37,838 nucleotides of DNA from a bacterium (GTDB lineage Bacteria > Patescibacteriota > Minisyncoccia > Minisyncoccales > JANBVM01), in NCBI GenBank assembly GCA_030588745.1, contig JAUUXB010000006.1, forward strand, positions 1 through 37,838, in the 5' to 3' direction. Positions within the stretch are counted from its first letter, which is position 1. Each line of letters begins with the position of its first letter. The position numbers and the translations under genes are program-made. Of this stretch, positions 7,863-32,929 are shown piece by piece. The notes under the pieces are model-generated. The model ran no database searches and was not told the DNA's origin. It was given only the letters and a program-made list of their open reading frames with translations.

Positions 7863-7909
7863 CAGTAATTTTCTTTTATTTTAAGCAAATTTATGTTATT
7901 GTTTTTAAT

Positions 7910-8978
7910 ATGGAAAACTTAAATGAGAGAATTGAAGATTTAAAAAGTAAACTCCATCAATTGATGGACTGGCTTTGACATTGAAAATAAAAAAAAGAAA
8001 TTAAAAGAATTAAAAAGACAAGTTCAAGACCCAGATCTTTGGAAAAACAAGGAAAAAGCAATAAAGATTTCTCAAGAACTAAGTCAGTTAACAGAGGAAT
8101 TAACTGAATTTGATGCGTTAGAAAAAGAAATTGAAGATTTAAAAAACGAAACAGGAATTCAAGCAATAGAAGATAAATTAAAACAAAAAGAAATCCAAGT
8201 TCTTTTTTTGGAAAAATACGACCAGGGAAACGCAATTCTATCAGTTTATTCTGGGGCTGGGGGATTGGATGCCCAGGACTGGGCAACAATGCTTATTAGA
8301 ATGTATGAAAGGTATTCTGAGAGTAAGGGCTTTAAAACTAAGGTTTTAGATCAGTCCTTTGGCGAAGGAGGAGGACCTGAGGGAAGAATTGGGACAAAAT
8401 CAGCTACAATAGAAATTAAAGGAAAGTTCGCTTACGGGTTTTTGAAAAAAGAAAATGGCGTGCATAGATTAGTAAGAATTTCTCCTTTTTCACAAAAAAA
8501 ATTAAGACATACATCATTTGCTTTAGTTGAAGTAATGCCTGAAATCAAACAATTAGATGAAAAGGAAATTGAAGTTAAACCAGAGAACTTAAAAATTGAA
8601 GTTTTTAGAGCATCAGGTCCAGGAGGTCAGTATGTTAACAAGCGTGAAACTGCTGTTAGAATAAAGCATTTGCCAACAGGAATTATTGCTTCCTGTCAGT
8701 CAGAAAGATCCCAGGCCAATAATAAAAAAAGAGCAATGGAGCTTCTTTATTCCCGTTTATATAAGTTCTACAAAGAAAGTAAAAAAAAGGAGATTTCTAA
8801 AATTAAAGGAGAAAAAAAGTCTGTTAGCTGGGGTAATCAGATAAGAAGCTATGTTCTTCATCCTTACAAACTGGTAAAGGATTTAAGAACTAAAGTAGAG
8901 GTTAGTACTGTTGAAAAAGTTTTAGATGGTGATTTAGATAATTTTATTGAAGCAGAAATTCGTTTAAAAAATGATTAA
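7910..8978 (+). CDS. prfB: Peptide chain release factor 2, programmed +1 frameshift
   Basis: ATG 7910, zero frame ends MDWL-TGA at 7976; the +1 frame from GAC 7977 continues DIENKKKKLKELKRQVQDPDLWKN... into the 8208-8978 ORF. SPF and GGQ motifs present. Confidence 0.93.
7973..7979 (+). promoter_or_regulatory. prfB +1 frameshift site CTTTGAC
   Basis: Canonical CTT TGA C slippery/stop sequence at codon 22-23. Confidence 0.92.
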
Positions 8979-9669
8979 GTTTCAAAACATTACAAAAATC
9001 TATCCTTCCCATGCACCTGGTTTTAAACCCACAATAGCTTTGGCTGATGTATCATTTGAAGTAAAAGCAAAGGATTTTGTTTCAATTGTAGGAAAATCAG
9101 GAGCTGGAAAAACAACACTACTCAAACTTCTTTTGGCTGAAGAAAAACCAACAAAAGGAACAGTGCTTTTTAAAAAACAGGATGTTCACAGCATAGAACC
9201 AGAAGAACTGCCTTATTTAAGAAGAAAAATAGGCGCAGTATTTCAGGATTATAAGTTGTTATCTTCAAAAACCACTTATGAAAATGTTGCCTATATTATG
9301 GAAGTTATTGGTGCTTCAGACAAAGAAATTAAAAAAGCTGTACCAATAATTTTGGAAATAGTTGGTCTAGGGGACAGGGCTAATAATTTTCCTGCCCAGC
9401 TTTCAGGAGGAGAACGCCAGAGAGCAGCTATTGCCAGAGCTTTGACTCACAGACCTGAAGTGATTTTAGCTGATGAGCCAACTGGAAATCTAGACCCATA
9501 TCATACCTTAGATATTATAGAACTGCTGCTTAAGATAAACAGGATGGGAACCACTGTTATTTTATCCACCCATGATAAAGCAACAATCAATAAGCTTGGC
9601 AAAAGAGTGATTACTTTAGAAAATGGTAAAGTAGTAAGAGATGAAAAAAAAGGAAGATTCATACTTTAA
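8971..9669 (+). CDS. ftsE: Cell division ATP-binding protein FtsE
   Basis: Walker A GKSGAGKTT, LSGGERQRAAIARAL, ILADEPTGNLD; upstream of FtsX. Confidence 0.92.
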   Translation: MIKFQNITKIYPSHAPGFKPTIALADVSFEVKAKDFVSIVGKSGAGKTTLLKLLLAEEKPTKGTVLFKKQDVHSIEPEELPYLRRKIGAVFQDYKLLSSKTTYENVAYIMEVIGASDKEIKKAVPIILEIVGLGDRANNFPAQLSGGERQRAAIARALTHRPEVILADEPTGNLDPYHTLDIIELLLKINRMGTTVILSTHDKATINKLGKRVITLENGKVVRDEKKGRFIL

Positions 9670-9683
9670 TAATTATTAGATAT

Positions 9684-10589
9684 ATGCTTATAATTAAAAG
9701 AATATTTCGTTCGGGCTGGCAGATTTTTTCCCGGGATAAAGAGGTTTCTTTAGCCATAGTTTTTATTTTGTTTTTAACAATTTGTTTGGTGAGTTCACTT
9801 TTTCTTTTTATAAATCTAACAAACTTTATTATTACAAGTACCCAGGAAAAGATTGATATCTCAGTTTATTTTAAACAGGAGACAGATGAAGATGACATAT
9901 TAGGCATTGGAAAAGAAATATCCAAGTTTCCTGAAGTAAAAGAAGTTGAGTACGTATCTCCTGACCAGGCACTAGTAGAATTTATTGAAAGACATGAAAA
10001 AGACCCTACTTTAATAGAATCAGTTGAGGAAATTGGAAGAAATCCTTTTTTAGCTTCTTTAAGTATCAGGGCCTGGGAATTAAGCCAGTATGGCGCAGTA
10101 TCTAGTTTTTTGGAAACAGCTGATTTTGGTGACCTTATTGAAAAGATTGATTTTTATGAGCGCAAATCAGTTATTGACAAAATTTCTTCTTTAAGCTCTT
10201 CAGTCACTAAAATAGGAGTTTTTGTTTCTGTGGCTTTAATAATCACTGCGGTTTTAATTGCTTTCAATACTATTAGGTTGTCAATTTATAATTCTAGCCA
10301 GGAAATAAAGATTCAGCGATTGGTTGGTGCTTCTAACTGGTCAATTAAGGGTCCATTCTTGGTTCAGGGAGCCATTTCTGGTGTAGTTGCTACTTCAATT
10401 TGCTTTTTGCTTTTTGCTTTGTTAAGCTGGTCTCTGAATTCTAATCTGGAAAGCTTTTTGTACGGATTTAACTTATTCTCAGTGTTTAGAAATAATTTCT
10501 GGGTTTTACTCTTTTTACAGCTTCTTACTGGAGTAAGCTTAGGAACGCTCTCAAGCAGTATAGCAATCAAACGTTATTTGAAAGTTTAA
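9684..10589 (+). CDS. ftsX: Cell division protein FtsX
   Basis: Four-TM FtsX architecture, SVYFKQETDEDDI, YVSPDQALVEF, EIKIQRLVGASNWSIKGPFLVQGAISG. Confidence 0.9.
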   Translation: MLIIKRIFRSGWQIFSRDKEVSLAIVFILFLTICLVSSLFLFINLTNFIITSTQEKIDISVYFKQETDEDDILGIGKEISKFPEVKEVEYVSPDQALVEFIERHEKDPTLIESVEEIGRNPFLASLSIRAWELSQYGAVSSFLETADFGDLIEKIDFYERKSVIDKISSLSSSVTKIGVFVSVALIITAVLIAFNTIRLSIYNSSQEIKIQRLVGASNWSIKGPFLVQGAISGVVATSICFLLFALLSWSLNSNLESFLYGFNLFSVFRNNFWVLLFLQLLTGVSLGTLSSSIAIKRYLKV

Positions 10590-10794: not shown

Positions 10795-10823
10795 TTGACC
10801 ATTTATAATGAAAATCTTATACT
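10795..10823 (+). promoter_or_regulatory. ftsZ promoter, predicted leaderless
   Basis: TTGACC (10795-10800), 17 nt, TATACT (10818-10823); ATG at 10830 lies 7 nt beyond the -10. Confidence 0.75.
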
Positions 10824-10829
10824 AAAACA

Positions 10830-12242
10830 ATGAGAAGAAGAAAAAAAACAAAAATGACTCAGCGTAGAAAAACTATCTCAAGAAGGAAAAGGGGAAGACC
10901 CAAAAAAAGGGGGAGACCTAGAAAAATAGGTATACTTAGAAAAAGAGGAAGACCAAGAAGAAGAGGAAGGCCCAGAAAAACTAAACTGGAGAAAGGCCAA
11001 GAGCAAATCAAAAAAATCAAGATCAGATTGATCGGTATTGGTGGAGGAGGGGGCTCAATAGTTTCTGAAATTGCTCAAAGAATAAAAGGAGCTTCTTTTT
11101 ATGCAGCTAACACAGATGTTAAGGCCTTAGGTGCTTTGTCAAAAAAAGTTAAAAAGTTTCAGTTTGGCGAAGCTTTAACTGGTGGTTTGGGAACTGGTAT
11201 GAATCCTGATATAGGAAAGGAAGCTGCCCGAAATGAAAAAGACAGGATTAAAGAAATATTAAAAGGCCAGGATTTTATTATCTTAGTGTCTTGTTTAGGT
11301 GGGGGTTTGGGTTCTGGTGCAGCTCCGATTTTTGCCCGCCTTTCAAAAAATTTGAATAATCTAACTTATGGTATTTTTACCCTGCCTTTTAATTTTGAAG
11401 GAGAAAAGAAAATGCAGACAGCAAAGAGGTCTTTAGAAAGCTTAAAAGCAGAATTAAATGCTTTTTCTATTATCCCCAATGAAAGAATCTTTCAGATTGT
11501 TGATAGAAGTGCACCACTTAAAAAAGCTCTCTCAGCCATTAACAGAAATCTATCAAACAGTATTCAGGGATTAATTGAAATAATTTACAAGCCAGGAATA
11601 ATTAACATTGATTTTGCTGATTTAAAAACTATTTTTGAGAGTAAAGGAAAGCTAGCTTATTTAAACACAATAGAGCTTTCAAAAAATGATGATAAGGATG
11701 CGCTTGATAAAATAATCAGTTATCCTCTTTATCCCTATAATCTTCAGGGAGCCAAAGGTGTGTTGTTTAATATTTCAGGGCAACGTGATCTTTCTCTGCT
11801 TCAGGTTAATCAGATCTCTGAAACCATTTTTAAACTGGCAAGTAAAGAAGCCAAGATTATTTTTGGTATTTCCAAAAACAGCAAGGGTTCAAAAATAAAA
11901 ATAAATTTACTTGGTACTGGCTGTAATGGAAGGGATATTCTTGAAAGGACAAAGCCCAGTATTATGGCTAAGTCAAAGGTTAAAGAAATGACTAAGCCAA
12001 AGGCAAAGAAAACAAAACAAGTTAAGAAAATTAAGGTTAAGGTTAAAGTTAAAAAAACAAAATCTTTGAACCAACAAACTTCATCCTTAGCAATCCAGCC
12101 AGTTAAACAAAAGAGCATTAAAATACGGAAAAATGCTCTTCAGATAAAAAAAGAAATGGAAAAAGAGGAGGCAGAGATAGTTTCAAAAGAGAAGTTGTGG
12201 GAAACACCAGCTTTTTTAAGGAGAAAAACATCACAAGACTAA
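10830..12242 (+). CDS. ftsZ: FtsZ with N-terminal AT-hook array and C-terminal conserved peptide
   Basis: Four RGRP cores; GIGGGGGS T1 loop, NTDVKAL, TGGLGTGMNPDIG, GGGLGSGAAP, IPNERIF, GIINIDFADLKTIF T7 loop; C-terminal ETPAFLRRK. Confidence 0.88.
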   Translation: MRRRKKTKMTQRRKTISRRKRGRPKKRGRPRKIGILRKRGRPRRRGRPRKTKLEKGQEQIKKIKIRLIGIGGGGGSIVSEIAQRIKGASFYAANTDVKALGALSKKVKKFQFGEALTGGLGTGMNPDIGKEAARNEKDRIKEILKGQDFIILVSCLGGGLGSGAAPIFARLSKNLNNLTYGIFTLPFNFEGEKKMQTAKRSLESLKAELNAFSIIPNERIFQIVDRSAPLKKALSAINRNLSNSIQGLIEIIYKPGIINIDFADLKTIFESKGKLAYLNTIELSKNDDKDALDKIISYPLYPYNLQGAKGVLFNISGQRDLSLLQVNQISETIFKLASKEAKIIFGISKNSKGSKIKINLLGTGCNGRDILERTKPSIMAKSKVKEMTKPKAKKTKQVKKIKVKVKVKKTKSLNQQTSSLAIQPVKQKSIKIRKNALQIKKEMEKEEAEIVSKEKLWETPAFLRRKTSQD

Positions 12243-30620: not shown

Positions 30621-31976
30621 ATGTTGAGCAAGAAGTTTTTAAAAACACTATTATGTTTTGCTTTATTAGCAGGATTTGTTTTGCCTGTTTTTAATTACAT
30701 CAGCTATCAGGCTTCAGCTCAAAGCCCTCAAGAAGAAAGACAGGTCCTTGAACAGGAGTTAAGAGAACTAGAAGAGCAACTTTTACTTATTGAAAATGAT
30801 ATTGAAAAAACTGAAAAAGAGAGGAAAACTCTTCAAAATGATATTTATCTTTTAAGACGAAAAATTCAGAGCTTAAATGTTCAGATTCAGCAAAGCAATA
30901 CAATGATTCAGGATCTTACGCTCCAGATAGATGACACAGAAGGTTCAATTGAACAAACCTCGCTTAAAGTGGAGGAATCAAAAGACCGACTTTCTGCAAT
31001 TCTAAGGAAAATCAATCAGGAAGATGAAAAATCTATAATTGAGATTTTCCTTACAGAAGAGAATCTATCTGATTTTTTCGAAGACTTAATAGCTTTAGAA
31101 ACTTTAAATAATAATAGCCGTGAACTTTTAACAAGCATTAAGTCATTAAAATCCAGCCTTGAAGAGCAAAAGGAGTCTTTAGATGAAGAGAAGATGGACC
31201 TAGAAACAATAGTTAAGGTAAGGATGTTGCAAAGACAAGAAAGCAGTCAATTAAAAACTGAGCAGGAAAGTTATCTAAAATTAACTGAGGAGCAATATCA
31301 GGAACAATTAAAAGAAAAAGAAGAGACAGAGAAAAAAGCCAGTGAAATCAGGGCAAGGATATTTGAATTAATTGGTGTTCCTAAAGCGCCTACTTTTGGC
31401 GAGGCCTATGAAATTGCAAAATATGTGTCAGGTGTTACTGGTGTTAGACCTGCTTTAATTCTTGCTGTTTTAACTCAAGAATCAAATATTGGGAAAAATG
31501 TTGGCCAGTGTTATTTAACAGATACTACAACCGGAAGAGGTGTGAGAATAACTAGTGGAAAGAAAGAAATTAAAACAATGAATCCTACCAGAGATTTGCC
31601 ATATTTTCTTGAGATATGTCGAAAGCTTGGCCGCGATCCTTTGAACACTCCAGTGTCCTGCCCAATGAGTATTGGCTGGGGTGGAGCAATGGGACCAGCT
31701 CAGTTTATACCTGACACCTGGGGAAATCCTAAATATGGATATGGTCAAAAAGTAAAAGAAGTTACTGGCAAAGAAGCTGATCCATGGGATATTAGAGATG
31801 CATTTTTAGCATCTGGTCTTTATCTGAGAGATTTAGGAGCAAAAACTAATGAGTTTAGGGCTGTGATGAGGTATTTTTCAGGTTATCGTTGGTCAAAATG
31901 GGAAGAGTTCTACGGCAGGTCAGTTTTAGCTATTGCTGCTAATTATGAGAAAGATATTAAGGAGCTTGAGAACTAA
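30621..31976 (+). CDS. Secreted coiled-coil protein with C-terminal lytic transglycosylase-like domain
   Basis: Signal peptide, long coiled coil, then LAVLTQESNIGKN...GAMGPAQFIPDTW...ASGLYLRDLG. Confidence 0.82.
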   Translation: MLSKKFLKTLLCFALLAGFVLPVFNYISYQASAQSPQEERQVLEQELRELEEQLLLIENDIEKTEKERKTLQNDIYLLRRKIQSLNVQIQQSNTMIQDLTLQIDDTEGSIEQTSLKVEESKDRLSAILRKINQEDEKSIIEIFLTEENLSDFFEDLIALETLNNNSRELLTSIKSLKSSLEEQKESLDEEKMDLETIVKVRMLQRQESSQLKTEQESYLKLTEEQYQEQLKEKEETEKKASEIRARIFELIGVPKAPTFGEAYEIAKYVSGVTGVRPALILAVLTQESNIGKNVGQCYLTDTTTGRGVRITSGKKEIKTMNPTRDLPYFLEICRKLGRDPLNTPVSCPMSIGWGGAMGPAQFIPDTWGNPKYGYGQKVKEVTGKEADPWDIRDAFLASGLYLRDLGAKTNEFRAVMRYFSGYRWSKWEEFYGRSVLAIAANYEKDIKELEN

Positions 31977-32703
31977 TTTTAGATTCAAGTTTTTTTAAAG
32001 TTTTAAATACCCGGTCTAGTTTCCCTTCCATAATGTTAGCTAAATCGTGCCAGCTTTTTTTTATTCTATGATCAGTGATTCTGTTTTGAGGGAAATTATA
32101 TGTTCTTATCTTATCAGCTCTTCTTGCCCATTTTATCTGAGCTCTTCTTTCTTTTGATAACTTTTCAATGTTTTTTGATTCTTCTTCTTCTAAGACTTTA
32201 GCTTGAAGAATTGCAAGAGCATTTTCTTTGTTTTGAAGCTGGTTTCTTTCAGATTGGGAGGTAACAACAATACCTGTTGGCTGGTGAGTGATTCTGACAG
32301 CAGTTTCACGTTTATTAACATACTGGCCTCCTGGTCCTGATGCTCTGTAGTAATCAATCTTTAGTTCATCTGCTCTTACAGTTATTTCAGTTTTTTTTGG
32401 TTTTGGAAATACAGCAACAGAAACGGTTGAAGTGTGAATTCTTCCTGCTTTTTCTGTTTTAGGTATTCTTTGGACTCTGTGAACTCCGGCTTCATATTTC
32501 ATTTTATCAAAAACATCACCATTTTTTAATTCAAAAACAACCTGCTTGTATCCACCCAGTTCTGTGGGGTGTGAATCAAGAGTTTTCTGCTTCCAGTTTT
32601 TATTTTGAGCATAACGAGAATACATTTTTAATAAATCAGCAGCAAAAAGTGCTGCTTCTTTACCTCCTGCTCCTGCTCTGATTTCAACGATTACTGATGG
32701 CAT
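31957..32703 (-). CDS. prfA: Peptide chain release factor 1, apparently lacking N-terminal domain 1
   Basis: MPSVIVEIRAGAGGKEAALFAADL..., HRVQRIPKTEKAGRIHTS, GPGGQYVNKRETAVRITHQPTG. ATG at 32703 is 1 nt after the rpmE stop; the 32856 start in the track overlaps rpmE in another frame. Confidence 0.85.
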   Translation of the reverse strand: MPSVIVEIRAGAGGKEAALFAADLLKMYSRYAQNKNWKQKTLDSHPTELGGYKQVVFELKNGDVFDKMKYEAGVHRVQRIPKTEKAGRIHTSTVSVAVFPKPKKTEITVRADELKIDYYRASGPGGQYVNKRETAVRITHQPTGIVVTSQSERNQLQNKENALAILQAKVLEEEESKNIEKLSKERRAQIKWARRADKIRTYNFPQNRITDHRIKKSWHDLANIMEGKLDRVFKTLKKLESKISSQAP

Positions 32704-32704
32704 T

Positions 32705-32929
32705 TCACTTTTTTTTCTTAAACTTTTCTTTTTTTGCCAGTTTTTCCTTGAATTTCTGAACCTGGCCCATTGTGTCCAGTAGTTTTTCTTTTCCAGTATA
32801 AAAAGGATGACATTTTGAACAAATCTCAGTTTCAATGAATTCTTTTGTTGAACCAACGTTAAAAGTATTGCCGCAAGCGCATTTAACCTGAGCGTGCGGA
32901 TAATATTTTGGGTGAGTATCTTTTTTCAT
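32705..32929 (-). CDS. rpmE: Ribosomal protein L31
   Basis: [50 protein letters not shown]. Confidence 0.93.

Follow-up and report, generated by a model that had tools for sequence, protein, structure and literature searches.

The window, a 37,838-nucleotide stretch of DNA from a 626-kb genome of the order Minisyncoccales, carries on its plus strand the gene ftsZ2 (10830-12242), which starts with ATG and encodes a 470-amino-acid (aa) FtsZ paralog with an N-terminal AT-hook array. Upstream of it lie murJ, a DivIC/FtsB-like gene, prfB, and the neighboring division genes ftsE (8971-9669, plus strand) and ftsX (9684-10589, plus strand). Among 80 related loci, ftsZ2 is linked to trxB in 48 and to eno in 55, and ftsE is nearby in 11. 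Two release factor genes of the window were also inspected. The prfB gene (RF2; 7909-8978) reads through CTT-TGA-C into the +1 frame, the classic and ordinary RF2 autoregulatory frameshift, while the RF1 gene prfA (31957-32850, minus strand) overlaps the end of the gene for ribosomal protein L31 and has its apparent start at MPSVIVEIRAGAGGKEA, which gives a short N-terminal domain.

FtsZ2 opens with a basic disordered extension (residues 1 to 60, 10830-11009; delimited by pLDDT and charge), followed by the FtsZ GTPase with its C-terminal subdomain (residues 62 to 370, 11013-11939) and a Lys-rich disordered linker (residues 371 to 430, 11940-12119). A predicted helix (residues 436 to 458, 12135-12203) precedes the C-terminal peptide ETPAFLRRK (12201-12227), a predicted FtsA-binding peptide, and the protein ends in WETPAFLRRKTSQD. 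The helix lies within a RKNALQ..KKE stretch (12129-12203) that is conserved ahead of the peptide in FtsZ2 sequences. A full GTPase, a Lys-rich linker, and this peptide had been proposed in an earlier, sequence-only reading of the locus, and the sequence and Pfam bear them out: the Tubulin/FtsZ GTPase model (PF00091) matches residues 64 to 225 (E value, 3e-32) and FtsZ_C (PF12327) residues 286 to 364 (E value, 4e-12), both over their cut-offs. The ftsZ equivalog model of NCBIfam (TIGR00065) is not reached (274.2 bits versus a cut-off of 295.2), which identifies FtsZ2 as a divergent FtsZ paralog and not the orthologous ftsZ.

The best solved-structure matches are FtsZs (top match, 2vam; E value, 2.7e-69), and the PDB search returned no solved homologue of the N-terminal tail. 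An AlphaFold2 model, built on a 40-sequence alignment, shows a confident FtsZ fold for residues 62 to 370 (pLDDT of about 95) and disorder without any predicted helix for residues 1 to 60 (pLDDT, 46 to 56); it also leaves the linker disordered over residues 374 to 430 and places the helix at residues 436 to 458. Residues 1 to 59 carry a net charge of +30. The linker (+20 over residues 367 to 455) and the core (+18) are also basic, so that charge might by itself account for other contacts. The T7 catalytic loop (NxDxxD) is intact, as NIDFADL at residues 259 to 265. In the T4 loop, or tubulin signature, the window's family has GGGLGSG versus the usual GGGTG[ST]G, with Leu for Thr. Most other FtsZ2 sequences matched by motif search have Thr at this position, a count that covers only FtsZ2 sequences fitting a narrow pattern, with many missed, and that is to be read alongside the family alignment. 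The Leu occupies what we take to be the position of T108 in E. coli FtsZ. The T108A replacement in E. coli lowers GTPase activity (PMC5979038), and the loss of the Thr may thus alter the GTPase rate of FtsZ2 and make it a slower, more stable subunit.

A sigma-70-type promoter, TTGACC-N17-TATACT (10795-10823, plus strand), ends 6 nucleotides (nt) before the ATG, in keeping with the earlier placement of a promoter at the hook-containing start, and the ftsZ2 mRNA is predicted to be leaderless, beginning at the ATG itself. Hexamers and spacing are identical in all four aligned family members. Across the order, 36 of 98 ftsZ2 genes are preceded by -35 and -10 boxes in precisely this placement, compared to at most 8 for any other distance tested, and ftsZ2 genes throughout the order appear to be leaderless. 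In 45 of the 98 genes, exactly 6 nt separate the end of the -10 box from the ATG. Ahead of the GTPase, the only in-frame ATGs are those of residues 1 and 9. Both precede the hooks, so that the claim of no ATG between hooks and GTPase stands. The only later start, a TTG at residue 67, falls within the first beta-strand (residues 65 to 70), and therefore no start yields an intact GTPase without the hooks. Because the leaderless promoter abuts the ATG and both ATGs precede the hooks, the hooks belong to the FtsZ2 protein; the conserved promoter, and the fact that no later start is usable, rule out a wrongly assigned start codon.

Conservation and distribution of the AT-hook array

Four [KR]RGRP[KR] cores occupy residues 21 to 48 of FtsZ2 (nt 10890-10973), arranged in two tandem pairs just as the sequence-only reading had described. 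The first pair, KRGRPKKRGRPRK (10890-10919, plus strand), has its cores at residues 21 to 24 and 27 to 30, and the second, KRGRPRRRGRPRK (10944-10973, plus strand), at residues 39 to 42 and 45 to 48. In 200,000 shuffles of the 59-aa extension, neither the window's sequence nor that of its congener ever gave four RGRPs, and a set of three came up only 3 times. At the DNA level, a tandem RGRP-x2-RGRP pattern has two matches in the 626-kb genome, both in ftsZ2, while the reversed control has none; the same pattern search detected no other tandem-RGRP protein in the genome. The Pfam AT_hook model matches four stretches in the tails of the window and the congener, at scores under its cut-off (13.0 and 9.9 versus 17.4 bits), and at an E value of ≤10 it matches none of six other Lys/Arg-rich FtsZ2 tails.

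The sole congener available for comparison, G001, encodes an FtsZ2 that is 72% identical to that of the window and has the array KGRGRPRKRGRPKKTGGSKGRGRPRKRGRPKK. The two species agree at each of the 16 core residues in the hooks, with 11 of the 16 codons changed. Among identical residues, changed codons make up 15 of 21 in the hook region versus 109 of 244 in the GTPase. Most changes flanking the cores exchange K and R, the spacers are not the same (IGIL versus TGGS), and linker identity is 28%. The identity of the core residues despite synonymous codon changes indicates that R-G-R-P is under purifying selection, and an origin of the hooks by chance from K/R composition is ruled out by the shuffles together with the codon comparison. 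Both hook pairs of G001 use the same codons in their cores, so the doubling there may be a recent duplication or may have been homogenized.

Among the sequences searched, the motif is not found beyond this genus. Our RGRP search covered 247 genomes of the order, 380 across the phylum, and 80 loci from GTDB genomes, and of 100 unique complete FtsZ2 sequences only those of the window and its congener contain RGRP hooks, with GRP of any kind absent from the other 98. The array is thus conserved in a second species and limited to one genus: RGRP is not common among relatives in the order, and a hook function cannot be order-wide in RGRP form. What is widespread is a basic N terminus. Relatives carry other Lys/Arg-rich tails without RGRP, some similar in charge to the hook tail, and across the 100 FtsZ2 sequences the extension has a median length of 32 residues and a median net charge of +8, reaching at least +5 in 81. 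Homologs that start at the GTPase domain without a basic extension do occur, mainly outside the order, and most homologs within it are extended. In a genome of another order of the same class (locus L150, genome G418), a single FtsZ has a Lys-rich N-terminal tail of 62 aa with a net charge of +28, perhaps an independent gain.

Two FtsZ proteins and undetected positioning proteins

The genome encodes a second FtsZ, FtsZ1 (positions 1066-2010 of locus L001, minus strand), a 314-aa protein that ends with its FtsZ_C domain and has a core net charge of +15. Its gene directly follows ftsA, so that FtsA is encoded beside FtsZ1. In an HMM census of the order, FtsZ1 (n = 39) is a bare GTPase of about 310 aa with essentially no extension and no linker, and by peptide pattern the C-terminal peptide is present in 0 of 39 FtsZ1 versus 97 of 100 FtsZ2 sequences. 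Outgroup FtsZs from the phylum (n = 22) have a median N terminus of 8 aa and a normal C-terminal peptide. Judged from these sequences, the components of an ordinary FtsZ are divided between FtsZ1 and FtsZ2. An ftsA-linked FtsZ that lacks both peptide and linker (L001 and L173-L212) is an unusual state for the main FtsZ of a bacterium.

The FtsZ2 sequences form a single clade with 100/100 support, separated from FtsZ1 and the outgroup FtsZs. In a class-wide sample, two FtsZs were found in each of the 6 genomes from the order and a single one in 100 of the 106 genomes from elsewhere. This single clade and the presence of two FtsZs across the order make FtsZ2 an order-level paralog. A binning artifact is ruled out, as this genome groups with one and the same congener, at 100% bootstrap, in both the FtsZ1 and the FtsZ2 branch. 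The proposal of an AT-hook FtsZ of the ordinary kind is accordingly revised: the hooks are indeed fused to a peptide-bearing FtsZ, but the cell has two FtsZs and this is the second, divergent one. A plain statement that the FtsZ of the cell binds DNA would oversimplify; FtsZ1, encoded beside ftsA, lacks both hooks and peptide.

SepF, HU, MinC, and ParB were not detected in the window's own genome, and HU and ParB were not detected in the congener, which is listed as 100% complete. Among 30 relatives, ParB is found in 8 and HU in 9, which points to an absence that is common in the lineage and not an assembly gap. Most relatives without HU or ParB are also hook-less, so the loss of these proteins is not tied to the hooks.

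Possible roles of FtsZ2

We propose, at roughly even odds, that FtsZ2 is the attachment subunit of a two-FtsZ system and bridges the nucleoid and the membrane-bound Z-ring. After an ancient duplication, the ftsA-linked FtsZ1 would have been reduced to a bare polymerizing GTPase, and FtsZ2 would have retained linker and C-terminal peptide and acquired a basic tail at its N terminus. FtsZ2 would most likely enter a mixed filament with FtsZ1 as its attachment subunit, and such co-assembly of the two is quite probable. Its C-terminal peptide would bind FtsA at the membrane, with the tail on the opposite side of the filament, facing the cytoplasm. In E. coli, moving the membrane anchor of FtsZ from the C to the N terminus inverts membrane deformation and chirality, and the authors draw N- and C-terminal anchors on opposite filament faces (PMC5979038); we hold the opposite-face geometry of tail and peptide in FtsZ2 to be a good bet by this analogy. 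In the window's genus the tail would hold AT-rich DNA, and judging by its motifs the hook tail is likely to bind DNA. One protein would then link nucleoid and Z-ring without an adaptor, a role played elsewhere by MatP-ZapAB, SlmA, and Noc. Such a contact might position the ring, keep a chromosome region near it, or block it over bulk DNA; whether FtsZ2 serves nucleoid coupling or positioning in any of these ways is, from sequence, about a coin toss.

Other functions can be imagined for a tail of this kind. It might be a generic basic tail that lies on acidic phospholipids, as a second membrane contact or a curvature sensor, with RGRP as one solution of many. The mycobacterial FtsK extension, which resembles the FtsZ2 tail in being a lineage-specific, disordered, positively charged addition to a conserved division protein, did not bind DNA in electrophoretic mobility shift assays (EMSA); its ligands were cardiolipin and phosphatidic acid (PMC13277299). 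Most FtsZ2 proteins of the order likewise have RGRP-less Lys/Arg-rich tails, some with a charge similar to that of the hook tail, and with such tails as the FtsZ2 norm, the ancestral role may be a lipid or protein contact and DNA binding a one-genus elaboration. However, charge alone needs neither Gly nor Pro, and both are kept within the genus under strong synonymous divergence. In addition, hydrophobic residues in the hook tail are few (12% and 9%) and no helix is predicted, hence it offers no amphipathic anchor. Low hydrophobic content, lack of a helix, and conserved Gly and Pro together favor DNA as the partner of the hook tail, and we consider a lipid-binding tail unlikely. A tail acting inside the filament, where it would cause bundling through contacts with adjacent protofilaments or with the acidic helix ahead of the peptide, appears less plausible still: the Glu-rich helix is a possible acidic partner, but the net positive cores of both FtsZ1 and FtsZ2 disfavor electrostatic bundling, and RGRP is left unexplained.

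An RNA- or ribosome-binding or autoregulatory element in place of a nucleoid anchor is improbable. For canonical AT-hooks RNA binding is an exception, which counts against this reading of the tail, and the neighborhood (ftsE and ftsX; conserved trxB-eno linkage) gives no hint of it, even though AT-hooks can bind structured RNA (PMC11354804). Finally, the K/R-rich start might be a by-product of leaderless translation, with A-rich codons after the ATG and no protein function. The mRNA is predicted to be leaderless and the first codons are A-rich, but the hooks are 60 to 144 nt farther on, their Gly and Pro codons are GC-rich, and they combine synonymous changes with conservation. The first 60 residues of FtsZ2 contain 32 K+R, compared to 16 in the next-highest sampled protein of the window. 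For the hook part, its position, codons, and conservation largely refute this explanation, to which we attach hardly any weight.

An FtsZ2 that attaches a mixed Z-ring to both membrane and DNA would address how the division ring is placed in bacteria without Min, Noc/SlmA, or ParB, especially the uncultured CPR, and FtsZ2 is a simple candidate since FtsZ itself would make the contact with DNA. In its broadest form, which we advance tentatively and with more doubt than conviction, Z-rings in an order of ultra-small bacteria would mix a bare FtsZ1 with FtsZ2 as the adaptor that bears all attachment sites, and in one genus the hooks would bind the nucleoid directly, replacing the missing positioning based on ParB/Noc, Min, and HU. 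In the collection of open-access papers searched, 8 mention both FtsZ and AT-hook, and judged by title and abstract none of these has a fusion of the two as its topic.

Comparison with known systems

FtsZ2 shares with canonical bacterial FtsZ the GTPase fold, the T7 loop (NxDFAD), the linker, and the C-terminal peptide. It differs in its 60-aa basic extension with four AT-hooks, in its GGGLGSG loop, and in being a second paralog outside the ftsA locus that scores below the equivalog cut-off. A divergent second FtsZ has been reported by phylogeny in some CPR genomes (PMC9871819), and FtsZ2 very probably belongs to the same paralog group; the passages of that study on the divergent copy treat its phylogeny and do not describe a peptide-less partner, a basic tail, or AT-hooks.

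The order-wide split between a bare polymer subunit and a peptide-bearing, basic-tailed one parallels chloroplasts, where only one of two FtsZs (FtsZ1/FtsZ2) keeps the ring-tethering C-terminal peptide and the FtsZ without it is presumed to reach the ring via co-assembly with the peptide-bearing partner (PMC8142252). Unlike in chloroplasts, the duplication described here is independent and bacterial, and the peptide-bearing FtsZ2 also has a basic tail or AT-hooks, which offers a bacterial model for mixed Z-rings.

As in CarD and HMGA proteins, the hooks of FtsZ2 comprise four RGRP cores in a disordered basic segment. A bacterial precedent for DNA binding by four RGRP hooks is Myxococcus CarD, which contacts AT-rich DNA in the minor groove through them (PMC4374960). 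CarD is, however, a transcription regulator with hooks in a C-terminal domain of ~140 residues, whereas those of FtsZ2 are N-terminal, form two tight pairs, and sit on a cytoskeletal GTPase. Noc and SlmA link chromosome, membrane, and FtsZ position (PMC7858058, PMC7468209), yet each is a protein of its own with a sequence-specific DNA domain, unlike FtsZ2, in which the candidate DNA-binding motif lies within the FtsZ itself and would be specific for AT-rich tracts only.
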